From Acidobacteria bacterium RIFCSPLOWO2_02_FULL_65_29 (GTDB taxonomy: Bacteria > Acidobacteriota > Vicinamibacteria > Vicinamibacterales > CAVVIG01): a stretch of DNA of 64,000 nt. The stretch covers positions 1-64,000 of the forward strand of contig MEKT01000021.1 in the NCBI GenBank assembly GCA_001767435.1, given 5' to 3'. The position numbers and the translations under genes are program-made. Below are positions 3,483-60,607 of this stretch, in pieces; the stretch's first letter is position 1; the number at the start of each line of letters is the position of its first letter. The notes under the pieces were generated by a model. The model had not been told where the DNA came from. It saw only the letters and a program-made list of their open reading frames with translations, and ran no database searches.

Positions 3483-5231
3483 CTAGAAATGCTCGTCGCT
3501 AGCCATCTGACCCCAGAAGATCGAGTCAGATTGCCCCCAGAAGATGGAATCAGCGTCCATCTGTCCCCAGAAGATCGAGTCGGACTGTCCCCAGAAAATC
3601 GACGCAGCTTGGCCCCAGAAAATCGAATCGGATTGCCCCCAGAAGATGGAATCTGACTGTCCCCAGAAGATCGAATCGGTTTGGCCCCAGAAGATTGAAT
3701 CAGCCTGAATGCCGAAATTCGTGTGCCTTATTCCGGAGCGCTTAGCGGATGTTTTTCCCGGCAGCGTTACGCGCAGCTGAACGGTTGCGCTGTCAGAAGG
3801 ACTCTGGAGGCTCTGGGAAGTAACCCGGCCCGTGTAGGCGAATCCCAGCGCCTCTGCAATCTCCCCGGCGATTACCGTGTCTCCAACCGCCGAGCTAGCG
3901 CCGTTTGCGACCAAGTCCACCGCCGCCAGCGCATTCAAACTCCCCGCGCCACTCACCACCAACCCCTCGCCCGGCATGAACGAGCTCGTCATTTGCAGCA
4001 CGGCCTTCGCGTCGCGCGGCGTCAACCGCTCCCGCTCCTCCAAGAGCAGCGCCACGGTCCCGCTCACCACCCCCGCCGCCATGCTCGTGCCCGACAGCTG
4101 CAGATACCCATCCGAACCCGTTCCCGCCACGTGCCGCGCCGGATACGTCCTCGACAAATACGACCCCGCCGCCTCCGCCGACACCACGCGCGTTCCGGGC
4201 GCCACCAGGTCCGGCTTCAGCACCAGGTCGTACCGCGTCGGCCCCTTCGAGCTGAACTTCGCCACCGTGTCGTCTGACCGCACCGCCGTCTCGTGCGTGT
4301 CGAGCGCCCCCACCGTGATCACGTGCGGATCGTTGCCCGGCGTCGCCACGCTCCCGTACACCTGCCGGCCCTCCGCGTCGATGCCGTAGTTGCCGGCCGC
4401 CACGATCACCAGCATGCCCGCCGCCACCGCGCGCTCCACGGCCTCGCACATCGGGTCGTCGCGATACGGCTGCGTCACCGGCGCGCCGAGCGACAGATTG
4501 ATCACCTTGATGTCGAACTGGCGGCGGTTCTCGATCGCCCAGTCGATGGCTTCGATCACGTCGCTGGCCATGCCCGCTCCGTCTTCATTGAGCACGCGCA
4601 GGTTGATGATGCGCGCGCCCGAGGCGATGCCCCGGTAGTCGCTCGTATCGGCCGTTCGGCCCGCTCGACCCGCGATGATCCCCGCGACGTGTGTGCCGTG
4701 GCCGTACCGATCCGATCCGTCGCCGCCGATGAAATCCCTGATGAACACAACTTTGCCGCTGAGCGCCGCGTGATTCGCGTCGACACCCGAATCGATCACC
4801 GCCACGCCAACGCCCGCGCCCGACAACGACGGAACGCCCTCGCCGCCGGCCCAGACCTGATCGGCGCCGATGGTCTGTGCGGTCACGTCGCCAATCGAGC
4901 GAATCGGCACGTCCGCCGATAGATGTTCCAGCGTCTCGTCCTGCTGCAGGGCGTCGAGTTGACCGGCGGTGACGCGCAGAACGGCGCCGCTCCGCAGGTA
5001 CCGCTTGACGCGCACGTTGTACCGCCGCGCGAGCGCGTCCACCTCGGCACGAGTGCCGTGGACGATGACGTCGATCGAGGCCGACCCGGCCGCCAGATGA
5101 TCGGCCAGATCCGCGCTGAGCCGCGCGCGATGGGCCTGGGCGTCGGCCGGCCCCGCCACAAGTATCGAAACGAATGTGAGCGTTGTCGCCACCGTCACGA
5201 CTCGCCGAAGCCTTGCTGGAATTCGTGCCAT
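3483..5231 (-). CDS. Secreted S8 (subtilisin-like) protease with C-terminal IFWGQ repeats
   Basis: 582 aa. Residues 1-32 are a signal peptide (cleavage near ADAQA). Residues about 35-120 resemble an I9-type propeptide that folds and inhibits the protease. The S8 catalytic domain (about 135-440) has all catalytic residues: Asp147 (AVIDSGVD), His178 (HGTHVAG), oxyanion Asn281 (AAGN) and Ser382 (GTSMAAG). After a linker, residues 510-575 carry eight copies of a unit close to SDSIFWGQ, then a short acidic tail MASDEHF. The repeat tail is not part of the usual S8 fold and I know no assigned role for it. The gene lies between a small HTH gene (31 bases upstream) and the HD-GYP gene, all on the minus strand. 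The enzyme is probably periplasmic or extracellular; the Trp-rich tail could bind a partner or surface, or be a processed product. Confidence 0.93.
   Translation of the reverse strand: MARIPARLRRVVTVATTLTFVSILVAGPADAQAHRARLSADLADHLAAGSASIDVIVHGTRAEVDALARRYNVRVKRYLRSGAVLRVTAGQLDALQQDETLEHLSADVPIRSIGDVTAQTIGADQVWAGGEGVPSLSGAGVGVAVIDSGVDANHAALSGKVVFIRDFIGGDGSDRYGHGTHVAGIIAGRAGRTADTSDYRGIASGARIINLRVLNEDGAGMASDVIEAIDWAIENRRQFDIKVINLSLGAPVTQPYRDDPMCEAVERAVAAGMLVIVAAGNYGIDAEGRQVYGSVATPGNDPHVITVGALDTHETAVRSDDTVAKFSSKGPTRYDLVLKPDLVAPGTRVVSAEAAGSYLSRTYPARHVAGTGSDGYLQLSGTSMAAGVVSGTVALLLEERERLTPRDAKAVLQMTSSFMPGEGLVVSGAGSLNALAAVDLVANGASSAVGDTVIAGEIAEALGFAYTGRVTSQSLQSPSDSATVQLRVTLPGKTSAKRSGIRHTNFGIQADSIFWGQTDSIFWGQSDSIFWGQSDSIFWGQAASIFWGQSDSIFWGQMDADSIFWGQSDSIFWGQMASDEHF
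3507..3704 (-). repeat. Tandem 24-nt coding repeats giving eight IFWGQ units
   Basis: The minus strand encodes eight copies of IFWGQ, mostly every eight residues (24 nt). One copy has AAS in place of SDS before IFWGQ, and one is preceded by two extra residues (MDADSIFWGQ). The DNA units are similar but not identical, with varied third positions, suggesting selection on the peptide as well as copy-number slippage. Confidence 0.9.
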
Positions 5232-9556: not shown

Positions 9557-9617
9557 GTGGACTTGGGCCTCGGGGGCTGAATAAGAATTTCTCTGCGATC
9601 TCTGCGGTCTCTGCCCT

Positions 9618-9657
9618 TCGACGGGCTCAGGGCATCCCGAGCCTGTCGGGCGATGCG
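9618..9657. repeat. REP-like palindrome, CCCTTCGACGGGCTCAGGGC type
   Basis: The sequence CCCTTCGACGGGCTCAGGGC is followed by CCCGAGCCTGTCGGG. Both halves are related to the GAGCCTGTCGAAGGGC core seen elsewhere in the window, here in a non-coding position just upstream of the aldolase gene. Its arms are partly complementary and can form a hairpin. Confidence 0.65.
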
Positions 9658-10590: not shown

Positions 10591-11717
10591 GCCTGCTTCC
10601 CGACATCGATCGCGTTCTGCTTGGTCCCGGCCCGAGCCCCACGTCTCCGCGCGTCATGCGCGCCATGGCGTCGCCCACCGTCAGCCCTCTCGATCCCCTG
10701 ATGCTGGCGCTCCTCGACGACGTGCGGGCGCGGCTCACGCGGATGTTTCGAGCGCCCGAGGGTTCGTTTGCGTTTGCCGTCTCGGGCACAGGCACCTCGG
10801 GCATGGAGACCGCGGTCGCCAACCTCGTGAAGGAGGGGACGCGCGCGCTCGCCGTTGTGACCGGCTACTTCGGCGATCGGCTCGCGCAGATGTGCGAGCG
10901 GTACGGCGCCACGGTTACGCGTCTCGACGTCGAGTGGGGCCGCGCGTGCGATCCCGCCGCGCTCCGCCGCGCGCTCGACAGGACGCCGGCCGACCTCGTC
11001 GCCATGGTCCACGCCGAGACGTCGACCGGTGTCCTGAACCCAGTCGACCTCATGGCGCCTATCGCGCGCGAGCGCGGAGCGCTGACGATCGTCGACGCCG
11101 TGACGTCGTTCGGCGGCCACCCGCTCGACGTCGGCGCGTGGAGCATCGACGCCTGCTACAGCTGCACGCAGAAGTGCCTTGGCGCCCCGTCGGGGCTCGC
11201 GCCCGTCGTGTTCGGTCCGCGCGCGCTCGAGAGGCGCGTGAAGTGCCGCAGTTTCTATTTCGACCTTCAGCTCCTGCAGGACTACTGGCTGAACCGGAAG
11301 TACCACCACACGATGTCGTCCACACTCGTGTACGCGCTCGATGAAGCGCTCGCCATCGTCGAAGAGGAAGGGCTCGAGGCGCGGTGGGCGCGGCACGAGC
11401 GCAACCATCGTGCGCTCATCGAGGACCTGAAGACGATCGGGCTCTCCGTGCTGCCGCCCGAGGGCGAGCGGCTGTGGACGCTGAACGCGGTGCGCGTGCC
11501 GAACACCGTCAATGACCCCGCCGTGCGAAAGCACCTTCTCGACCAGTTCAACATCGAGATCGGCGCCGGCCTCGGTCCGCTCGCCGGACAGATCTGGCGC
11601 GTGGGCCTGATGGGCGCGGGCTCCGCGCCGCGGCTGATCGTGTTGCTCATCGGCGCGCTCGAGAGCGCCTTGGCGCTTCAGGGGAACAAGGTGCCTGCCT
11701 ATGAAGCGCAGCCCTAA
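10587..11717 (+). CDS. PLP aminotransferase class V, alanine-glyoxylate/serine-pyruvate type
   Basis: 376 aa, starting at an ATG that overlaps the aldolase stop. It begins LLGPGPSPTSPRVMRAMASP, the substrate-loop signature of the AGT/SPT family. The PLP-binding Lys is Lys196 in SCTQKCLGAPSG, preceded by the VDAVTSFGG motif (Asp170 contacts the pyridine nitrogen). Family members transfer an amino group from alanine or serine to glyoxylate, giving glycine. With the HOGA1-like aldolase it would form a two-step route from hydroxyproline-derived 4-hydroxy-2-oxoglutarate to pyruvate and glycine. The 3' end overlaps the next gene by 17 bases. Confidence 0.92.
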   Translation: MSLLPDIDRVLLGPGPSPTSPRVMRAMASPTVSPLDPLMLALLDDVRARLTRMFRAPEGSFAFAVSGTGTSGMETAVANLVKEGTRALAVVTGYFGDRLAQMCERYGATVTRLDVEWGRACDPAALRRALDRTPADLVAMVHAETSTGVLNPVDLMAPIARERGALTIVDAVTSFGGHPLDVGAWSIDACYSCTQKCLGAPSGLAPVVFGPRALERRVKCRSFYFDLQLLQDYWLNRKYHHTMSSTLVYALDEALAIVEEEGLEARWARHERNHRALIEDLKTIGLSVLPPEGERLWTLNAVRVPNTVNDPAVRKHLLDQFNIEIGAGLGPLAGQIWRVGLMGAGSAPRLIVLLIGALESALALQGNKVPAYEAQP

Positions 11718-12708
11718 GACTCGGACTCAGACTTGGACGAGCCGGATCGGCACGGCGGCAGCGAGCGTCGCGGCCCTCGGCTTCGGGTGCCTGGCGTACG
11801 CGTATCTCACGCTGCCCGACGTCCGTCCGCTCGCCAAGTTGAATCCCGAGACCACGGCATTCATGGACCTGCGCGATCGGGAGGCGCGCGCGAGGGGCAA
11901 CGAGCCCAAACGGGTGCACAGGTGGGTGGCCTACAGCCGCATTTCGCCGAGCCTGAAGCGCGCGGTGCTCGTCGCCGAAGACGCCGCGTTCTGGTCGCAC
12001 GACGGCCTCGACTACGACGAGCTTCGAAAAGCCATCGAGCTCGACTGGGAGCGCGGGCAGCTCGTGCGCGGCGCCAGCACCATCACACAGCAGCTGGCCA
12101 AGAACCTGTATCTCTCGCCGTCGAGAAATCCGCTGCGCAAGCTGCGCGAGCTCATCATCGCCCGTCGCCTCGAGGCAGAGCTGGAGAAGGCGCGCATTCT
12201 CGAAATTTATTTGAACGTCATCGAGTGGGGCGACGGCGTGTACGGCGTTGAAGCGGCGGCGCGCTCCTACTTCGGCACGTCCGCGGCGGCGTTGGGCCCG
12301 ACGGAATCGGCGCTCCTGGCGGGCGCCATCGTCAACCCGCGCCTGCTGAACCCCGCGCATCCGACGCCGCGGCTACGCAACCGTCAGCGCCTGATTCTGG
12401 GACGGATGCACGTGGTGGTGCCGCCGCCCGATACGGCCCCGCCCCGCCCTGAGCCTGTCGAAGGGCCTCGCCCTGCGCCTGCCGAAGGGATCCGTGCCGA
12501 GGAGCCTGCCGAATCGCCTCACGCCGAGCCTGCCGAAGTGCCTCACGCCGAGCCTGTCGAAGGGCCTGACCCTGAGCCTGCCGAAGGGCCTCGCGTTGAG
12601 CCTGCCGAAGGGCTTCGCCCTGAGCCTGCCGAAGGGCGGGGTGAAGTCCGGCCTGAGCCCGACCAACCATTGAGGTCCGCGCCAGCCGCGGAGCCCGATC
12701 AGTTTTGA
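11701..12708 (+). CDS. mtgA: Monofunctional peptidoglycan glycosyltransferase (GT51) with repeat tail
   Basis: 335 aa. After a short basic N-terminus there is one membrane segment (about residues 13-33). Residues about 60-225 are GT51, which polymerises lipid II into glycan strands: the catalytic Glu lies in [14 protein letters not shown], followed by [17 protein letters not shown] and [13 protein letters not shown]. No transpeptidase domain follows, so it is MtgA-like. The last 90 residues or so are a low-complexity Pro/Glu tail built of 8-residue units like EPAEGPRP, encoded by a 24-bp tandem DNA repeat with the REP-like core. The tail is absent from MtgA as known and is probably a repeat expansion. 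The gene overlaps the aminotransferase by 17 bases. Confidence 0.9.
12453..12633 (+). repeat. Eight 24-bp tandem copies of the GCCTG(T/C)CGAAGGG repeat inside mtgA
   Basis: GCCTGTCGAA or GCCTGCCGAA starts at 12453, 12477, 12504, 12528, 12552, 12576, 12600 and 12624, that is every 24 bases with one 27-base step. All copies are in the same reading frame and give an eight-residue protein period. The unit is the same core as the dispersed REP-like palindromes. Confidence 0.85.
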
Positions 12709-14178: not shown

Positions 14179-14185
14179 CACAGAG

Positions 14186-14347
14186 AGTCGTCGTCAGTCG
14201 ATAGTCATTAGTCGATAGTCGTTGGTCGTTAGGCCTGCCTCGATAATCACGACAGTCGGTTCGCGAGTCTGCGGCCGCGACCGCTACACTTGTGACTCAC
14301 GTCTCTCTACACGACTAGCGACTAACGACTAACGACTAACGACTATT
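14186..14347. repeat. Inverted 7-nt-period repeat (AGTCGTT / AACGACT)
   Basis: The left arm (14186-14233) is a run of AGTCGAT, AGTCATT, AGTCGTT-like heptamers beginning just after the HNH stop. The right arm (14311-14347) is a run of the reverse complement, AACGACT, ending one base before the next start codon. About 77 bases of other sequence lie between. Transcripts could fold into an imperfect hairpin spanning the whole intergenic region. Confidence 0.8.
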
Positions 14348-17563: not shown

Positions 17564-17621
17564 AATCCCAGTACTGAGTGCGACGGCTGTCGGCCCAGAA
17601 CCTGTGCGAAGGGGGTTTCAC

Positions 17622-19547
17622 GTGAAGAATTCCGGCCACGTTCACCACATTCCGATCGTCATCGCGGCGACGCTGTTTGCCGCCTTGCTGCTGGCGCCGG
17701 CGTCCGTCTTGGGCCAGGCGCCGGCCTCTGCCACAGCCGGCGACCAAGCCAGCGACAAAGGCAAAGCCGCGAAGGCGAAACGGCTCGCCCAACAGTTCGA
17801 GCTCAACGCTCGCGTGCTCACGGTGTTCGACCGCCAAGGGAAGGTCGTCGCCACGGTCGGGGATCGTGCGCTGTATAACGCGATGGTCTTCTCGGGAGAC
17901 CGGACACGGCTGGCCGTGATCAAGAACGATCTCGAGAGCGAGACCAACGACCTGTGGGTGTTGGATGTGGCCACGGGGAACAGCACACGGATCACCTCCA
18001 ACCAACCGCGGGAATTCATGCGGACGCCGGTCTGGTCCCCGGACGGCAGCCAGGTGGCGTATGTGGCGTTGCGCCGCGGATCCGAGGGTCTGTACCGAAA
18101 AGCTTCGAACGGCGAGGGAACCGAAGAGCTCGTGTACAAGAATCCCGGCTTTGGGATGATCCTCACCGACTGGTCGATGGACGGACGTTTCCTGAGCTTT
18201 TCCTCGTCCGATCTTTCAGGAGGGGCCTTGTTCGCGATACCGCTCGGTGGTGGTGGGGAGCGAAAACCCATCGAGGTCTTTCGCTCTGAATCTCAGGTGC
18301 AGGGGTCGAGCCTTTCTCCCGACGGCCGCTTCGTGTCGTATTCGTCGAACCAGTCCGAAAAATTTGAAGTGTATGTCCGGCCGTTCGGCCCATCGGCGGG
18401 CGTGGCGGCGACACCGGCCGCGGGGCCGTGGCAGGTGTCCGACCAAGGTGGCCAAGGCCAGGGCTTTTGGCGGCAGGACGGCAAGGAACTGTACTATCTG
18501 GCGGCCGATTCAGGCCTGATGGCGGTGGAGGTCAGCACCGCTCGCACGGTCACATTCGGAAAGCCGAAATTGCTGTTCCGCCTGTCGGAGGCGGTCCCCG
18601 TCTTTCCCGGGGGGATCGGTGTCAGCCGCGACGGGGAGCGAGTAGTGATCGCCGTGCCTCCGGCGCCTACGCTGCGGCAGATCACGGTGTTCGACCGTAA
18701 CGGGAAGGTTATCAAGAAGGTGGGGGAACCTGGTCTCTACGTCCAGCCGGCGCTCTCACCCGACGGAACACGGGTGGCGGTGATGAGGATCGATCCGCGG
18801 GAGGGCGACAATGACATCTGGACGTTCGACGTAGCCACGAGCAAGGGCACGCCGGTCACGGTTGATACCTTACCGGAGAATGCTCCTATCTGGTCTCCGG
18901 ACGGCCGTCAGGTGGCCTATGTGTCGACGCGCGGGAAATTCTCCAGCATCTATCGAAAAGCGTGGGACGGCACGGGCGATGAAGAGCAGCTGTTTCAGTA
19001 CACGCCGGGCGCAGGCATGGTGCTGACGGACTGGTCGGCGGACGGAAAGTTCCTGACCTTCGACTCGGGAAACCTGCACGTTGTGCCGATCGGTGGAGGT
19101 CAGAAGGCGCTCGAGCGGAAAGCGTTTGGGTGGCGGGAGGAGTACGACGTGCTCCAGGGCCGGTTTTCTCCTGATTCCCGCTTCATGGCTTACCTGTCGA
19201 ACGAGATCGAGGTTGAGATCTTTGAAGTCTTCGTACGCCCGTTTGATGCCAGCAAGCTCGAGACCGGAGCGGGAGGCGCGACACCGGTGCAGGTGTCCAC
19301 CGCGGGCGCCCGAGGCATGATCTTCTGGCGGCAGGACGGCAAGGAACTGTACTACCTGACCCCGGAGTGGGAGGTGATGGCGGTGGACGTGACCACGACT
19401 CCCACGTTTCGGGCGGGGACGCCGAGGCTTCTGTTCAAGTTGCCGGGTCCCGTGGTCGGAAATCCGTTCCAGTGGAGAAGCGTCAGCCGCGACGGTGAGC
19501 GTTTCGTGTTCACCATCAGTGTGCCGGTGAGCGCGTTCGCGCGCTGA
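17622..19547 (+). CDS. Secreted TolB-like/PD40 beta-propeller protein, paralogue 1
   Basis: 641 aa from the GTG at 17622, chosen because paralogue 2 starts at the same position with the same MKNS residues. Residues 1-32 are a signal peptide. The rest is WD40-like PD40 repeats with the motif SPDGxxxAYVS repeated through two propeller-like halves (about 40-340 and 350-640), each opening with ITVFDRxGKVxxxVGE-type strands. Proteins like this are periplasmic or secreted; PD40 domains usually bind proteins or polymers. No catalytic domain is seen. It forms a tandem pair with the next gene and shares a nearly identical stretch near 18.9-19.05 kb. Confidence 0.85.
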   Translation: MKNSGHVHHIPIVIAATLFAALLLAPASVLGQAPASATAGDQASDKGKAAKAKRLAQQFELNARVLTVFDRQGKVVATVGDRALYNAMVFSGDRTRLAVIKNDLESETNDLWVLDVATGNSTRITSNQPREFMRTPVWSPDGSQVAYVALRRGSEGLYRKASNGEGTEELVYKNPGFGMILTDWSMDGRFLSFSSSDLSGGALFAIPLGGGGERKPIEVFRSESQVQGSSLSPDGRFVSYSSNQSEKFEVYVRPFGPSAGVAATPAAGPWQVSDQGGQGQGFWRQDGKELYYLAADSGLMAVEVSTARTVTFGKPKLLFRLSEAVPVFPGGIGVSRDGERVVIAVPPAPTLRQITVFDRNGKVIKKVGEPGLYVQPALSPDGTRVAVMRIDPREGDNDIWTFDVATSKGTPVTVDTLPENAPIWSPDGRQVAYVSTRGKFSSIYRKAWDGTGDEEQLFQYTPGAGMVLTDWSADGKFLTFDSGNLHVVPIGGGQKALERKAFGWREEYDVLQGRFSPDSRFMAYLSNEIEVEIFEVFVRPFDASKLETGAGGATPVQVSTAGARGMIFWRQDGKELYYLTPEWEVMAVDVTTTPTFRAGTPRLLFKLPGPVVGNPFQWRSVSRDGERFVFTISVPVSAFAR

Positions 19548-19583: not shown

Positions 19584-19750
19584 GCCACGAAACTCGAAAT
19601 CACGAAACAGCAAGGCTTGCTTAGTGGTTTCGTGTTTTCGTGGCTGAATCACGTTCAAGAGCGTTGCGAAATTGACCGACGAAAACCGCGGAGCACACAG
19701 AGACCGCAGATCAGCCCCAAAGCCTCCGCGGGTTCTGCGAGCTTTGCGGT
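19584..19750. repeat. Inverted CACGAAA repeat and GCGGAG/GCAGATC spacer
   Basis: GCCACGAAACTCGAAATCACGAAAC (from 19583) is followed by GGTTTCGTGTTTTCGTGGC (19625-19642), an inverted repeat of ACGAAA-type units. From 19680 to 19750 comes a CGCGGAG / CAGAGACCGCAG / CTCCGCGG tract. Together they fill most of the 278-base gap between the TolB-like paralogues; no gene is visible there. Confidence 0.65.
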
Positions 19751-19825
19751 GATCGTCGTAGTTCGTAATTCTGCAGGGTGCTCTGAAGCGTCAAGCGCAG
19801 CGCACTACTCGCGAGAGGTTTCAAG

Positions 19826-21847
19826 GTGAAGAATTCTTTCCAGGCGGCAATCCTGGTCGCGACGGCTGGCCTGTCCGCGCTTCTCCTGGTTCCCGTGCCC
19901 GTCCTGGGCCAGGCGACAGCCCAGGCCAACGCCGACGACCAAGCTGTAGCCGCGAGGGCCCGACGAATCGCCCAACAGTTTGAGGCCCAGGCTCGAGTAC
20001 TCACCGTGTTCGACCGCCAAGGGAAGGTTGTAACGACGGTCGGGGAGCGTGCGATTTACAGCTGGCCGGTCTTCTCGCCGGACCGGACGCGGCTGGCCGT
20101 GGGAGAGACAGATTTAGAGAGCGAAACCGTGAATCTCTGGGTGTTGGATGTGGCCACTGGGCACAGCACACGGATCACCTCCAGTCAAAACCGGGAGCAC
20201 GCGTGGGCGCCGGTCTGGTCTCCGGACGGCAGCCAGGTGGCGTATGTGGCGTTGCGCGGCGGGTATTTCGGTCTGTACCGAAAAGCTTCGAACGGAGGGG
20301 GAACCGAGGAACTCCTGTACCAGCATCCCGGCGCGAACATGTTCCTCTACGACTGGTCGATGGACGGACGTTTCCTGAGCTTCTCCACGACGGACCTTTC
20401 GGGAGGGACCTTGTACTTGCTACCGCTCGCTGGCGATAGGGAGCGCCCCTCGACTGCTTCGACAGGCTCGATTGGCTCGGGGCGACCTGACCCTTCGACA
20501 AGCTCAGGGTCACCCCGAGCCGAGTCGAGGGGTGAGCTTGCCGAAGGTCGCACACCCAGCCAGGTTTTTCGTACCGAGTTTCGGGTGCAGGGATCGCGCC
20601 TTTCTCCCGACGGCCGCTTCCTGTCCTACGAGTCGAATCAGTCCGGGACGAATGAAGTCTATGTCCGGCCGTTCGATCAATCGGCCGGCGCGGGGGCTGC
20701 ACCGGCCGCGGGGCCATGGCAGGTGTCGGACCAAGGTGGCCAGGGCCCGGCCTGGTGGCGGCGGGACGGCAAGGAAATGTACTACGTGGCGGCCGATCGA
20801 GGCGTGATGGCGGTGGATGTCAGCACAGCTTCCGCGTTCCAATTCGGAAAGCCGAAGTTGCTGTTCCGCCTCTCGGAGGCAGTCCCCGTCACTCTTACGC
20901 TGGCCAGTGTCAGCCGCGACGGCGAGCGGGTGGTGATCGCCGTGCCCCATGCGCCGACCCTTCGGCAGATCACGATGTTCGACGGCCAGGGGAACGTTCT
21001 GCACAAGGTTGGGGAACCCGGTCTTTACGTTCAGCCCGCGCTCTCACCGGACGGAACCAAGGTGGCGGTTATGAGGGTTGATCCACGAGAGGGCAATCAG
21101 GACATCTGGACGTTCGACGTCGCCTCGGGTAAGGGCACGCCAGTCACGAATGATACCCTACCGGAGAATGCGCCTATCTGGTCTCCGGACGGCCGTCAGG
21201 TGGCCTATGTGTCGACGCGCGGGAAATTTTCCAGCATCTATCGAAAAGCGTGGGACGGCACGGGCGATGAAGAGCAACTGTTTCAGTACACGCCGGGCGC
21301 AGGCATGGTGCTGACGGACTGGTCGGCGGACGGAAAGTTCCTGAGCTTCCACGATGGCTGCGGGGGGGTCTTGCACGTGGTGCCGCTCAGTGGAGATCAG
21401 AAGGCTCTTGAGCGAAAAGCGATTGAGTGGCTGCGCGACGAGTACAACGTGGCCCAGGCCCGGTTTTCTCCCGATTCCCGCTTCATAGCCTACGTGTCGA
21501 ACGAGATCGAGGCCGAGACATTTGAGGTCTATGTGCGCCCGTTTGATGCCAGCAAGGCCGATGTCAGCGCGGGAGGCGAGAAACCGGTGCAGGTTTCCCA
21601 CGCGGGCGCCCTGGGCATGATCTTCTGGCGGCAGGACGGCAAGGAAATGTACTACCTGACTCCGGATTGGGAGGTGATGGCGGTGGAGGTTACCACCACT
21701 CCCACGTTTCAGGCAGGCACGCCCAGGCTTCTTTTCAAGTTACCGGGTCCGGTGCTCGGAAATCCGCAACAGTGGAAAAACGTCAGCCGCGAGGGGCAGC
21801 GTTTCGTGTTCACGATCAGCGTGCCGGCGAGTGTGACCGCGCGCTGA
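19826..21847 (+). CDS. Secreted TolB-like/PD40 beta-propeller protein, paralogue 2
   Basis: 673 aa, GTG start with a nearby AAGG. It has a signal peptide (residues 1-30) and the same two-propeller PD40 layout as paralogue 1. Relative to paralogue 1 it has about 35 extra residues (around 208-243) that replace a short loop; the DNA there (20446-20555) is a REP-like palindrome kept in frame. The region around residues 445-505 is almost identical to paralogue 1 at both protein and DNA level, unlike the rest. Function is unknown; the tandem duplication suggests variants of one binding protein. Confidence 0.85.
   Translation: MKNSFQAAILVATAGLSALLLVPVPVLGQATAQANADDQAVAARARRIAQQFEAQARVLTVFDRQGKVVTTVGERAIYSWPVFSPDRTRLAVGETDLESETVNLWVLDVATGHSTRITSSQNREHAWAPVWSPDGSQVAYVALRGGYFGLYRKASNGGGTEELLYQHPGANMFLYDWSMDGRFLSFSTTDLSGGTLYLLPLAGDRERPSTASTGSIGSGRPDPSTSSGSPRAESRGELAEGRTPSQVFRTEFRVQGSRLSPDGRFLSYESNQSGTNEVYVRPFDQSAGAGAAPAAGPWQVSDQGGQGPAWWRRDGKEMYYVAADRGVMAVDVSTASAFQFGKPKLLFRLSEAVPVTLTLASVSRDGERVVIAVPHAPTLRQITMFDGQGNVLHKVGEPGLYVQPALSPDGTKVAVMRVDPREGNQDIWTFDVASGKGTPVTNDTLPENAPIWSPDGRQVAYVSTRGKFSSIYRKAWDGTGDEEQLFQYTPGAGMVLTDWSADGKFLSFHDGCGGVLHVVPLSGDQKALERKAIEWLRDEYNVAQARFSPDSRFIAYVSNEIEAETFEVYVRPFDASKADVSAGGEKPVQVSHAGALGMIFWRQDGKEMYYLTPDWEVMAVEVTTTPTFQAGTPRLLFKLPGPVLGNPQQWKNVSREGQRFVFTISVPASVTAR
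20446..20555. repeat. REP-like palindrome inserted in frame in TolB-like paralogue 2
   Basis: The insert is bounded by CCCCTCGACT (20446-20455) and its complement AGTCGAGGGG (20523-20532). An inner hairpin pairs TCGGGGCGACCTGACCCT with AGGGTCACCCCGA. It contains CTTCGACAGGCTCG and CCTTCGACAAGCTCAGGG, matching the core seen in other genes. Paralogue 1 lacks it, which gives the pre-insertion state. Confidence 0.85.
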
Positions 21848-26243: not shown

Positions 26244-26332
26244 GTAATTGTTTACCGCCTTAACCTCCATGAGCGGCAAACAATTACTAGTAACTGTTTA
26301 CCGGAATGCTCTAGTCAACCGGTGAACAGTTA
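26244..26332. repeat. Two-hairpin GTTTACCG element, copy A (before lpxC)
   Basis: Hairpin 1 pairs GTAATTGTTTACCGC (26244-26258) with GCGGCAAACAATTAC (26273-26287), one mismatch. After TAG, hairpin 2 pairs TAACTGTTTACCGG (26291-26304) with CCGGTGAACAGTTA (26319-26332), one mismatch. A second copy with the same order and spacing is at 36001-36090. It lies in the 326-base uvrA-lpxC gap, in which no other gene is visible. It may be a mobile palindromic repeat or a regulatory structure. Confidence 0.85.
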
Positions 26333-28892: not shown

Positions 28893-28907
28893 GGATAGGA
28901 GAAGTCT

Positions 28908-28974
28908 ACAGTTAACAGTTAACAGTTCACAGTTGCAACAGGCCGCACAACTGTCAACTGTCGACTGTCAACTA
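28908..28974. repeat. Inverted 7-nt-period repeat (CAGTTAA / CAACTGT)
   Basis: The left arm (28908-28936) is TACAGTTAACAGTTAACAGT and relatives; the right arm (28948-28974) is CAACTGTCAACTGTCGACTG and relatives. The loop is about 11 bases. The TAG stop of the minus-strand 88-aa gene (28972-28974) lies at its right edge. Confidence 0.75.
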
Positions 28975-29238
28975 TCTCCTAGGTAGCTTCTTCATATACG
29001 CCTCGAGCTTGTCGTTCTCGTACTTGACGGTGTTGAGAAACAGGCTTTCGGCGAGATACGCGCGGCACTCCTCGTCGGTCATCTGCGCGATCAGGTGCTG
29101 AATCTCCCTCACCATGTCTTCGAAAGACCGCTCGAGCGCTCGCTTCGCGGTCACTTCGCGGTAGAGCGCCTCCATGACGGCCAGGAGATCGCCGTCGAGC
29201 CTGATGTCCGCGCCGCTCGTCGTCTTGATGGTGCGCAT
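28972..29238 (-). CDS. Small acidic helical protein downstream of STAS gene
   Basis: 88 aa. I do not recognise it. It starts MRTIKTTSGADIRLDGDLLA, is predicted mostly helical, and ends in a charged helix with ENDKLEAYMKKLPRR. No membrane segment or signal is seen. It directly follows the STAS gene (one-base gap) in a sigma-STAS-small-protein order, so a regulatory role connected with the sigma factor is possible. Confidence 0.65.
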   Translation of the reverse strand: MRTIKTTSGADIRLDGDLLAVMEALYREVTAKRALERSFEDMVREIQHLIAQMTDEECRAYLAESLFLNTVKYENDKLEAYMKKLPRR

Positions 29239-30260: not shown

Positions 30261-30390
30261 ATAGTCGTTAGTCATTAGTCGTTAGTCGATAGTCCAGAGA
30301 TGGCGACGACCCCTCGGCTATCAGCTATCCGCGGTCGACCCGCGACTAACGACGGCGACTAACGACTAACGACTATCGACTAGCGACTAC
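30261..30390. repeat. Inverted 7-nt-period repeat (GTCGTTA / TAACGAC)
   Basis: Left arm 30261-30296 (TAGTCGTTAGTCATTAGTCG type) and right arm 30342-30390 (CGACTAACGACTATCGACTA type) flank about 45 bases of other sequence in the divergent sigma-lysA gap. The right arm ends one base before the GTG start of lysA. Confidence 0.8.
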
Positions 30391-30391
30391 C

Positions 30392-31636
30392 GTGGTCGGC
30401 TTCTACCAGCACAGTTCCGAGCTCGTCTGCGACGACGTACCGCTGTCGGCCATCGCCGCCGACGTGGGCACGCCGACCTACGTGTACAGCGCCGCGGCGG
30501 TTCGCGAGCGGTATCGAGCGATCGACGGGGCGTTTGGCGCGTATCCCCACGCGCTGCACTACGCGCTCAAGGCCAACTCGACGTTCGCCCTCGTCAAGTT
30601 GCTGCGGGAGCTCGGGAGCGCGGTCGATGCCAACTCGATCGGGGAAATCGAGGTCGCCCGGCGCGCGGGCTTTGCCCCCTCCGAGATCGTGTTCCCCGGC
30701 GTGGGGAAGTCGCCCGCCGAGCTCGAGTGCGCGGTGCCGCTCGGACTCAAAGCCATCAACGTCGAGTCGGCGGGCGAGCTCGCGCGCGTGGAGGCCATCG
30801 CCGCGAAGACCGGCCGTCCTGCCCGCGTGGCCGTCCGCGTCAACCCCGACATCGACGCGCGGACTCACCCGCACGTCTCGACCGGTTTGAAGATCAACAA
30901 GTTCGGCGTTCCAGTGGATCAGGCGCGGGAGCTGTTGACCTCCATGGCCGGCCGCCGGTGGCTGACACTCGTGGCGATTCACGTGCACGTCGGCTCGCAG
31001 ATCACCACCCTCGGCCCCCTCAGAAACGCGGCGGCGTTTGCCGCCGGCCTCGCCGGCGAGCTTCGCGGCGCGGGCGTCCGGCTCGAATACCTGGACCTCG
31101 GCGGCGGATTGGGCATCGCCTACGACGGTGGCGCTATCGTGACGCCCGAGGAATACGTCGCCGCCCTCGTGCACGAAGTGCGTGCGGACGGTCTGCCGAT
31201 CGTGATCGAGCCAGGCCGCTCGATCGTCGGGCCGGCAGGCGTGCTCGTCGCGCAAGTGGTCGATCTCAAGCCCCGGGACGCGTCCAGCCACTTCGCCGTC
31301 CTCGATGCCGGCATGACCGAGCTCCTGCGGCCGGCGCTGTACGGCGCGTTTCATCGCATCGAGCCCGTGCGCCCGCGCGCGAACGGTGCGCACGAGTACG
31401 AAGTCGTTGGACCGGTCTGTGAAAGCAGCGACGTCGTGGGCCGCGACCGGCGGCTTGCCAGGCTCGAGGTGGGCGACTTCGTGGCCATTCGCGACGTCGG
31501 GGCGTACGGCGCCGCCATGGCGTCCAACTACAACCGGCGCCCGCTGCCGGCCGAAGTCCTCGTCGACGAGGGCCGATGGCGGGTCATCCGGCGGCGTCAG
31601 ACGGTCGACGATATGCTGTCGTTGGAACATGAGTAG
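30392..31636 (+). CDS. lysA: Diaminopimelate decarboxylase
   Basis: 414 aa, GTG start. It is a fold type III PLP enzyme that converts meso-diaminopimelate to lysine. The PLP Lys lies in HYALKANSTFALVKLL; the HVHVGSQI and LDLGGGLGI strands of the barrel, EPGRSIVGPAG, and the active-site Cys region VVGPVCESSDVV are present. Length is normal. It is transcribed alone from a repeat-rich gap; no lysine-pathway neighbours are visible. Confidence 0.97.
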   Translation: MVGFYQHSSELVCDDVPLSAIAADVGTPTYVYSAAAVRERYRAIDGAFGAYPHALHYALKANSTFALVKLLRELGSAVDANSIGEIEVARRAGFAPSEIVFPGVGKSPAELECAVPLGLKAINVESAGELARVEAIAAKTGRPARVAVRVNPDIDARTHPHVSTGLKINKFGVPVDQARELLTSMAGRRWLTLVAIHVHVGSQITTLGPLRNAAAFAAGLAGELRGAGVRLEYLDLGGGLGIAYDGGAIVTPEEYVAALVHEVRADGLPIVIEPGRSIVGPAGVLVAQVVDLKPRDASSHFAVLDAGMTELLRPALYGAFHRIEPVRPRANGAHEYEVVGPVCESSDVVGRDRRLARLEVGDFVAIRDVGAYGAAMASNYNRRPLPAEVLVDEGRWRVIRRRQTVDDMLSLEHE

Positions 31637-31755
31637 TCGACAGTCAACAGTCGACAGTTAACAGTCAACAGTCGACAGTTAACAGTCAACAGTTGACAGT
31701 TGGAAGCCGCGCGGGTCGCAGCCCGACTGTGAACTGTCAACTGTGAACTGTCGAC
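31637..31755. repeat. Inverted 7-nt-period repeat (CAGTCAA/CAGTTAA / AACTGTC)
   Basis: The left arm (31637-31701) has eight or nine heptamers of the ACAGTCA, ACAGTCG and ACAGTTA type, starting directly at the lysA stop. The right arm (31724-31755) is ACTGTGAACTGTCAACTGTG type. A stable long hairpin is possible. The tmk ATG follows 12 bases later. Confidence 0.8.
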
Positions 31756-31767
31756 TTTTCCTGAGCT

Positions 31768-36000: not shown

Positions 36001-36090
36001 GTAATTGTTTACCGCCTTTCGGTGCATGAGCGGTAAACAATTACTAGTAACTGTTTACCGGAGTGCTCCAGTCGACTCGATAAACAGTTA
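36001..36090. repeat. Two-hairpin GTTTACCG element, copy B (before rplU)
   Basis: Hairpin 1: GTAATTGTTTACCGC (36001-36015) with GCGGTAAACAATTAC (36030-36044), perfect 15-bp arms. Hairpin 2: TAACTGTTTACCGG (36048-36061) with a right arm ending ATAAACAGTTA (36080-36090), at least 10 bp. The TAG between hairpins and the loop base AGTGCTCCAGTC match copy A at 26244-26332. The rest of the 200-base gap shows no gene. Confidence 0.85.
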
Positions 36091-41367: not shown

Positions 41368-42867
41368 ATGATTACAGTCGTTGGGGGAGGGCTCGCCGGC
41401 TGCGAAGCCGCGTGGCAGGCCGCGTCGGGTGGCGTGCCGGTCACCCTTCATGAAATGCGACCGGAGCGCCCGACCGCGGTGCACAAGACCGATCGGCTCG
41501 CCGAGCTCGTGTGCAGCAACTCGTTCCGCGGTGACAAGCTGGACAACGCGGTGGGTCTGCTCAAGGAAGAGATGCGGCGGCTCGGTTCGATCGTGATGCG
41601 AGCCGCGGAGGCGAGCCGCGTGCCGGCTGGCGCCGCGCTCGCGGTCGATCGCGAACAATTCGCCGCTGGCGTCACCAACGCGATGACGGAGCACCCGCTC
41701 ATCACGATCGCGCGAGGCGAAGTCACGTCGATTCCCCAATCCTCGGAGACCGCGCCGGTCATCCTGGCGACCGGGCCGCTGACCTCCGAAGCGCTGTCGA
41801 TCGAGATTGCCGCGCTCGTGGGCGGCGAGCACCTCTACTTCTACGACGCCATCAGCCCCATCGTCTCCGCCGAGACGATCGATCGGACGAAGGTGTTTCG
41901 GCAGTCGCGGTGGGACCGAAGTCTCGGTCCGGCCAGGCCACAGGCGGGCGGACCAGCGTGTGGCATGGACGAGGGTCAGGGCGATTACCTGAATTGTCCG
42001 CTGACGCGCGAGGAGTACGAGCGCTTCTACGACGCGCTCGTGCACGCCGAGTCGGCCACGGTGCACGACTTCGACAAGGAGCGCTTCTTCGAGGGCTGCT
42101 TGCCGATCGAAGTCATGGCGCACCGCGGCGTGGACACGCTGCGCTTCGGGCCAATGAAGCCGGTCGGCCTCGTCGATCCGCGGACGGGCCGCGAGCCGTA
42201 CGCCGCCGTGCAACTCAGACAGGACAATCTGGCTGGCGACCATTTCAGCCTCGTCGGCTTTCAGACGCAGATCAAGTGGGGCGAGCAGGCGAGGGTGTTA
42301 CGGCTCGTTCCGGGCCTCGAGCAGGCCGAGTTCGTCCGCTTCGGTATGGTGCATCGCAATACGTACGTCAACGGGCCGACCGTGCTCCGCGAGACGTGGC
42401 AGGTGCGATCGCGGCCGGCCTTGTTTTTCGCCGGCCAGATGTCGGGCGTCGAAGGGTACGTCGAGTCGGCGGCCTCGGGCCTGCTCGCCGGCATGAACGC
42501 CGCGGCGATGGTCGGCGGTCACTCCCTCTCGGCGCCGCCTCGGACGACGGCGATTGGCGCGCTGTCGTACTACGTGTCGCACGCCGACCCGGCGCGCTAC
42601 GAGCCGTCGAACATCACCTTCGGCATCATGGAGCCTCTGGCGAGAGCGCCGAAGAGCAAACAGTCGCGGAAGCTCGCGATGTCTGCGCGCGCGCTCGCGG
42701 ATCTCGACGCGTGGATGGCGGCTCGGCGGACATTTCTTGTGGCGCGTGGGGCCCCACCCCCACGCGCTGAAGACCTCGGCTTCGAGCGTAGACTCTCGTC
42801 CCTCGACGTCGCTCGGGACGAGCCTGAGCGAGTCGAAGGCTCGGCCTCGGGTGACCACCGTCCGTGA
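41368..42867 (+). CDS. trmFO: Methylenetetrahydrofolate-tRNA-(uracil-54 C5)-methyltransferase
   Basis: 499 aa from the ATG at 41368; the frame is open to 41236 but this start gives MITVVGGGLAGCEAA, the FAD-binding GxGxxG. Further motifs: TDRLAELVCSNSFRGDKLDN with the catalytic Cys in VCSNS, and VGFQTQIKWGEQARVLRLVP. It makes ribothymidine at tRNA position 54 using folate and FAD. The last 25 residues or so (RDEPERVEGSASGDHRP) are repeat-encoded (42817-42852) and not conserved. The stop overlaps xerC in GTGA. Confidence 0.96.
   Translation: MITVVGGGLAGCEAAWQAASGGVPVTLHEMRPERPTAVHKTDRLAELVCSNSFRGDKLDNAVGLLKEEMRRLGSIVMRAAEASRVPAGAALAVDREQFAAGVTNAMTEHPLITIARGEVTSIPQSSETAPVILATGPLTSEALSIEIAALVGGEHLYFYDAISPIVSAETIDRTKVFRQSRWDRSLGPARPQAGGPACGMDEGQGDYLNCPLTREEYERFYDALVHAESATVHDFDKERFFEGCLPIEVMAHRGVDTLRFGPMKPVGLVDPRTGREPYAAVQLRQDNLAGDHFSLVGFQTQIKWGEQARVLRLVPGLEQAEFVRFGMVHRNTYVNGPTVLRETWQVRSRPALFFAGQMSGVEGYVESAASGLLAGMNAAAMVGGHSLSAPPRTTAIGALSYYVSHADPARYEPSNITFGIMEPLARAPKSKQSRKLAMSARALADLDAWMAARRTFLVARGAPPPRAEDLGFERRLSSLDVARDEPERVEGSASGDHRP
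42817..42852. repeat. REP-like core at trmFO 3' end
   Basis: GGACGAGCCTGAGCGAGTCGAAGGCTCGG, a variant of the GAGCCTGTCGAAGGGC core, lies just before the trmFO stop and encodes its last residues. It ends 15 bases before the stop codon. Confidence 0.65.
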
Positions 42868-48805: not shown

Positions 48806-48829
48806 GCCGGGGAAATGTACTACGGGCGG

Positions 48830-48886
48830 GGCAGAGGGCGGAGGGCAGAGGGCAGCCCTTTGCCCTTTGCTCTTTGCCCTTCTGCC
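48830..48886. repeat. Inverted 7-nt-period repeat (GGCAGAG / CTTTGCC)
   Basis: Left arm GGGCAGAGGGCGGAGGGCAG and right arm CCCTTTGCCCTTTGCTCTTT follow each other directly (48830-48855, 48856-48886) upstream of the ABC-F start and next to the stop of the HTH-receiver gene. Confidence 0.75.
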
Positions 48887-53230: not shown

Positions 53231-53268
53231 AGGGCAGAGGGCAGAGGGCAGAGGGCAGAGGGCAAAGG
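53231..53268. repeat. 7-nt-period repeat (GGCAGAG)
   Basis: Five tandem copies of AGGGCAG/AGGGCAA units fill the gap between the anti-sigma gene and the next start. Only one arm is present. It matches the left arm at 48830. Confidence 0.7.
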
Positions 53269-53286
53269 ACTGAATAGGTGATCGAG

Positions 53287-60527: not shown

Positions 60528-60549
60528 TCGGCTTCGAGCCTTCCGCTCG

Positions 60550-60583
60550 GAACTGTCAACTGTGAACTGTTGACTGTCGACTT
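60550..60583. repeat. 7-nt-period repeat (AACTGTC)
   Basis: AACTGTCAACTGTGAACTGT and TGACTGTCGACT: the single-arm form of the CAACTGT repeats seen at 28948 and 31724, in the 80-base gap before the FAH gene. Confidence 0.65.
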
Positions 60584-60607
60584 CGGTTGTTCAGCTAGAA
60601 TGTCCCC

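Follow-up and report, generated by a model that had tools for sequence, protein, structure and literature searches.

The window, i.e., the whole stretch of 64,000 nucleotides that was analysed, contains two adjacent paralogous genes for PD40/TolB-like proteins, with 76% identity between them (Table 1). A third paralogue is found on a separate contig (G000:C237:2252-4108). Paralogue 2 has 35 extra residues (208-242), placed between ER and TP/KP. A sequence-only reading of this DNA had assigned the corresponding insert to 20446-20555: the location was right, while the claimed range is a few bases too wide, the exact ends being 20447-20551.

Table 1. Genes, repeats and parts of the insert, with positions in the window
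Feature	Position	Strand	Remark
Simple 42-nt doublet within host repeat	9615..9656	+	Filled state
Paralogue 1, PD40/TolB-like beta-propeller protein	17604..19547	+	Without insert: the "before" state
Host repeat without doublet, just upstream of paralogue 2	19720..19776	+	Empty state
Paralogue 2, PD40/TolB-like protein with insert	19826..21847	+	Open frame of 673 aa
Left copy of target duplication A	20444..20446	+	CGC
Insertion	20447..20551	+	105 nt = 35 aa, right-hand target copy counted; from paralogue comparison
Outer doublet (42 nt in total), piece 1 of 3	20447..20453		Start of U1
Extra 18-nt piece within U1 of outer doublet	20454..20471		CTGCTTCGACAGGCTCGA
Outer doublet, piece 2 of 3	20472..20490		End of U1, centre A' = GCG (20482-20484), start of U2
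Nested doublet	20491..20535		45 nt
Nested doublet, U1	20491-20509
Nested doublet, A'	20510-20512		TCA
Nested doublet, U2	20513-20532
Nested doublet, left target copy	20488-20490		TGA
Nested doublet, right target copy	20533-20535		TGA
Outer doublet, piece 3 of 3	20536..20551		End of U2 and right target copy CGC (20549-20551)
Doublet near 3' end of trmFO-like ORF 41368-42867	42801..42838		C-terminal residues SLDVARDEPERVEGSASG

The insert in paralogue 2

The insert was compared with the paralogues and with more distant homologues. The segment is missing from all five of these, namely paralogue 1, paralogue 3, and the three homologues L104-L106 from other MAGs; hence, the 35 residues were gained in paralogue 2. 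This agrees with what had been proposed from the letters alone: the repeat entered the gene in frame, adding 105 nt, a multiple of three, that are open throughout, and the residues do not belong to an old loop. At the position of the CGC target, paralogues 1 and 3 have the arginine codons CGA and CGG, respectively.

The same reading described the segment as one complete palindromic repeat bounded by CCCCTCGACT and AGTCGAGGGG. A palindromic repeat is indeed present, but instead of a single simple palindrome there are two nested doublets: the left 10-mer (20446-20455) is part of the outer one, and the right 10-mer (20523-20532) is part of the nested one. The outer doublet reads CGC at the left, GCG at the centre, and CGC at the right. 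The nested doublet lies in its second unit, and excising it restores the unit GCGACCTGAGCTTGCCGAAGGTCGC. The lengths add up as 42 + 45 + 18 = 105, and every part is a multiple of three. In order of events, the outer doublet would have come first, at CGC, and the nested one would later have entered it at TGA. The 18-nt piece is at odds with the general scheme of these doublets, A-U1-A'-U2-A, in which U1 and U2 are the two units, A the flanks, and A' the centre.

Is the added peptide placed where it can be tolerated? In a structure model of paralogue 2 (mean pLDDT 75.6), residues 203-237 score below pLDDT 50 and are predicted to be disordered, and this stretch sits between the propeller strands 193-200 and 245-250. 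A disordered loop joining two strands is as expected for a tolerated surface loop.

A dispersed family of inverted doublets

The palindromic units belong to a family that is dispersed in the genome. The core CTTCGACnnGCTCAGG has 106 copies at ≤1 mismatch in the 5.5 Mb genome, compared with 11 for the reversed control, and 69 compared with 0 when no mismatch is allowed; within the window, 13 matches at ≤3 mismatches contrast with 0.69 expected. Rfam gave no match within the window. The stretches around most core copies were inspected, and both this genome and most of its relatives are draft assemblies.

The unit is a short hairpin, CCYTCGAC-nn-GCTCRGG, in which the outer stem bases vary from unit to unit yet stay complementary, using several pair types. 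At positions 1-4 outside the core, pairing is seen in 90/89/84/68% of 141 distinct units; with shuffled flanks, the values are 42/49/44/29%. The units mainly form inverted doublets with a spacing of 3-5 nt, and most of these have the form A-U1-A'-U2-A, in which the short centre is complementary to each of the two flanks. In this genome, the centre matches both flanks by ≥2 nt in 64% of the doublets, while 1000 shuffles averaged 4% and never exceeded 12%; an order-wide sample of 23 loci, one per genome, gave 65% versus 5% (maximum 26%) after shuffling. The sequences found as A are TGC, CGA(C), CGC, TGA, CA, CGG, and CGAG. About one third of the doublets have no shared centre of ≥2 nt, which may reflect decay or another route.

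A 24-nt head-to-tail array of the doublet unit (12427..12640) occupies the 3' end of an MtgA-like ORF (11701-12708), where it is translated in frame as 8-aa repeats of the EPAEGPRP type at the C-terminus; here, the repeat unit is expanding in tandem and not inserting as doublets. The window also harbours other repeats. Intergenic arrays of degenerate 7-nt units (AGTCGTT, ACAGTTA, and GGGCAGA types) are common to distant places (14182-14241, 28897-28981, 30261-30398, 31625-31762, 48829-48855, 53232-53272, 60529-60592); a MITE-like, AT-rich inverted-repeat element of 76 nt, GTAATTGTTTACCG...GGTAAACAATTAC, has two copies that are 88% identical (26244-26319 and 36001-36076); and a 24-nt tandem repeat, CCCCAGAAGATCGAATCGGACTGT, has seven copies (3508-3725) at the edge of the ORF 3483-5198.

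As for the spread of the family, the doublet pattern occurs in 76 of the 162 genomes of the order, and its reversed control in 0/162. In a sample of 199 genomes from the phylum, the core is patchy, with the present genome far ahead in copy number. Among 2.9 million viral contigs, the doublet was found in 15 stretches; there was no match among 72,556 plasmids, and a plasmid vector was rejected on these grounds. The core itself reaches further, with about ten to fifty copies in G226 (an Anaerolineales MAG, L151-L170), G062, and G203. In these genomes it sits in other composite repeats, e.g., GCCCAACCC-core-CCAGGCGCGTTGGGC, and the doublet form was absent from the stretches inspected. This suggests that the core belongs to a wider superfamily across phyla.

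Target sites and copies within genes

What does an insertion leave behind? One answer comes from a dispersed host repeat, CTCTGCGNNCTCTGCGG...GGTGATCGTCGTG, which has 47 places in the genome and is a frequent landing site. It occurs in the empty state, reading ...TCTCTGC-GGTGATCG... (e.g., L141, L138, and the window copy upstream of paralogue 2), with one doublet (the window copy at 9616, L032, L068), and with a doublet inside a doublet (L049, L055, L067).

A second answer comes from G183, which belongs to the same order but to a different family and carries the same doublets. Four of its insertions have empty orthologous sites in 2 to 8 of eight congeners each: L219, in an acyl-CoA dehydrogenase gene (8 sites), L220, in a histidine kinase gene (7), L231 (7, one of them with a possible remnant), and L227, in another histidine kinase gene (2). 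At the empty sites, the target or a close variant of it is present once where G183 has it twice. The lengths differ by 45 or 42 nt, and the L219 alignment shows another 3-nt difference, which lies upstream of the target. At all four sites, the centre is the reverse complement of the target. Thus, the two flanks A are copies of a duplicated target of 3-4 nt, which the centre mirrors. The solved acyl-CoA dehydrogenase 2z1q likewise runs uninterrupted, FAKV-DG-EHFTAF, where G183 has a 15-aa insert. At the site in G233 that is orthologous to L231 (L260), which is otherwise empty, the sequence reads ATCGACCCTTCGGCAGAC, and this looks like the remnant of a deleted copy.

Many copies lie within genes, which were called with a simple home-made codon score. 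Besides paralogue 2, at least ten other genes of this genome have in-frame copies; the hosts include an MtgA-like transglycosylase, an FG-GAP/ASPIC protein, a PQQ-propeller protein, an M28 peptidase, an esterase, an ImuB-like Y-family polymerase, DnaE2, a SagB-type dehydrogenase, an ATP-grasp ligase, and two Ser/Thr kinases. In G183, where names were taken from the translations (that of the dehydrogenase from the comparison with 2z1q), about nine genes have them, including the acyl-CoA dehydrogenase, two histidine kinases, and an S1-domain protein. The likeness to Rickettsia palindromic elements (RPEs), which had been pointed out at the outset, is therefore borne out as far as entry into unrelated genes in frame is concerned. 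With regard to the ImuB-like (L061:2577-4160) and DnaE2 (L077:1-1905) genes, both have in-frame repeat inserts; L061 and L077 may abut within dnaE2, so that one SOS-mutagenesis operon would hold both.

Five of the six reading frames are used, giving peptides of the PSTSSG, LRQAQG, FDKLR, PELVEG, and LSLSKG types, and no coding copy was seen to use the sixth, which holds a TGA. The expectation that every coding copy has a length divisible by three holds for 14 of 15 copies and fails for one. Outside genes, the proportion with such lengths (42 or 45 nt) is 49/64 (Fisher p = 0.28), and selection was rejected as the sole cause of the in-frame copies. Because the 42/45-nt length prevails outside genes too, the keeping of the frame is largely intrinsic to the element, and selection is a further filter on the coding copies.

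Known systems, possible mechanisms, and significance

In-frame palindromes within genes are already known. RPEs are palindromic repeats present in frame in many unrelated genes, where they add a peptide and leave the frame intact (PMC10969869). The doublets enter unrelated genes in the same manner, but RPEs are ∼150 bp long, form ten families, and occur in a different host group, whereas an inverted doublet of 42/45 nt is seen here, whose centre varies and mirrors the duplicated target of 3-4 nt; instead of one conserved encoded peptide, five frames are used. Intragenic REPs of the GTAG/CGTC type are mostly dimers or groups that encode 20-30 aa, and DnaE2 is among their targets (PMC3733652), as it is for the doublets. 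Both are high-copy short stem-loops that often form head-to-head dimers, both have compensatory stem variants, and some of both lie within ORFs. However, the doublets have no conserved terminal GTAG or CGTC tag, since the 4-5 outer stem bases vary freely and covary, and they come with a demonstrated target duplication and no linked RAYT. REPINs are REP doublets moved by RAYTs, with the doublet as the mobile unit (PMC3116915). They share with the present family the inverted doublet as replicative unit, its ability to fold as one hairpin, and compensatory changes; what differs here is the genome without a RAYT, the target-complementary spacer of only 3-7 nt, and the many genic copies. Like MITEs, the doublets are small and non-coding, with terminal inverted repeats (CCYTCGAC) and a target duplication, but they are much shorter than is usual, their internal centre is complementary to the target duplication, and the search, which covered PF01797, identified no parent transposon. 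Lastly, the GC clusters (GC42) of yeast mitochondrial DNA are 42-nt palindromic mobile units with short direct-repeat flanks that merge and shuffle (PMC4478555), all of which recalls the doublets; their fixed AG or ACT flanks and mitochondrial location are their own, and the passages cited here describe no complementary centre.

The segment in paralogue 2 is probably a derived state, produced by insertion of a REP-like mobile palindrome that is built as an inverted doublet of 42/45 nt with the form A-U1-A'-U2-A. It is scarcely credible that it is an old lineage-specific loop that happens to resemble the repeat, or a tandem repeat that expanded locally: the unit does form head-to-tail arrays (12427-12640), but the loop-free homologues and the exact empty sites in congeners refute this idea, and the same doublets are scattered in unrelated genes and intergenic sites. 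Which enzyme, then, moves the doublets? High-copy inverted doublets of short palindromes, and the precedent of intragenic REPs (PMC3733652; PMC3116915), bring to mind a classical REP/REPIN spread by a RAYT, a Y1 HUH transposase. A Y1 match occurs somewhere in 9 of the 11 genomes with ≥3 exact cores, compared with 124/199 overall, a difference that does not discriminate. However, the present genome, 97% complete and first in copy number among the 199, has no match to PF01797, and no Y1_Tnp match was found within 17 kb of a core in seven other genomes that have copies; on this basis a RAYT was rejected as the mobiliser. With the fixed tag missing and a target duplication present, spread of a classical REP/REPIN by a RAYT is quite unlikely. 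The best reading is that the doublets are a REP/MITE-like variant mobilised in trans by a putative enzyme.

As for the reaction itself, the doublet would carry no enzyme and be moved in trans, which we infer because no enzyme was found. In the preferred scheme, the target would be cut with a 3-4 nt stagger, after which hairpin units would be joined to both 3' ends. Once folded back, each unit would copy the overhang into A'. The two ends, being complementary, would pair, and fill-in would give A-U1-A'-U2-A with no further assumptions. Insertions within genes would survive through a length that is usually a multiple of three and open in five of six frames, and through a Ser/Thr/Gly/Pro-rich loop that may be tolerated at the surface. 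Fold-back copying predicts the same final sequence as target choice guided by base pairing, in which A' would belong to the donor as a fixed guide, never rewritten, and copies would land only at complementary triplets. IS200/IS605 elements choose their targets through internal guide sequences, a precedent for such guiding; their insertion is not known to yield a target duplication, so that the one observed here goes against it, as does the genome without Y1_Tnp. The precedent has also been discussed for REPINs (PMC3116915). The clustering of the centres in G183 (GTCG, TCG, TCA, CCG) speaks for guiding too, with targets that resemble a limited YGR-type set. Conversely, copies in G183 with identical U1 and U2 have different centres (GTCG, TCG, CCG), each fitting its own target, and these sequences would lean towards copying; guiding by a fixed centre appears somewhat doubtful. 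Still less probable is that the complementarity arose only later, when an imperfect palindrome was corrected during replication with its hairpin as the template. Such correction of quasi-palindromes is a known source of mutations, and an internal stem pair that does not derive from the target also covaries, but this leaves the 3-4 nt target duplication unexplained, and the complementarity is already full in copies whose units are almost unmutated.

How REP-like palindromes move and how some of them enter genes without harm is a long-standing question, and RPEs have been a curiosity since 2000. The literature search, made with the core sequence, the encoded peptides, and similar elements and leaving most subscription journals outside its range, returned no description of the doublet family; relative to the earlier descriptions found, what is new is that the family lacks both a fixed tag and a linked RAYT, duplicates its target, and has a centre complementary to that target. 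The matched empty and filled sites define the exact product of insertion, including the centre that mirrors the target, and the reaction is thereby constrained and testable. It is possible, and proposed here tentatively, that a mobile double hairpin copies the target whenever it inserts and so renews its own centre, unlike known bacterial transposition, through a candidate enzyme or host repair, and that its nearly stop-free inserts of 42/45 nt add flexible peptides to proteins order-wide.

These doublets are a clear example of selfish DNA that adds loops of peptide to conserved proteins throughout a bacterial order, among them an acyl-CoA dehydrogenase, an S1-domain ribosomal-type protein, histidine kinases, and DnaE2. 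Such insertions would account for the odd PSTSSG, LRQAQG, FDKLR, and PELVEG stretches that appear in predicted proteins.
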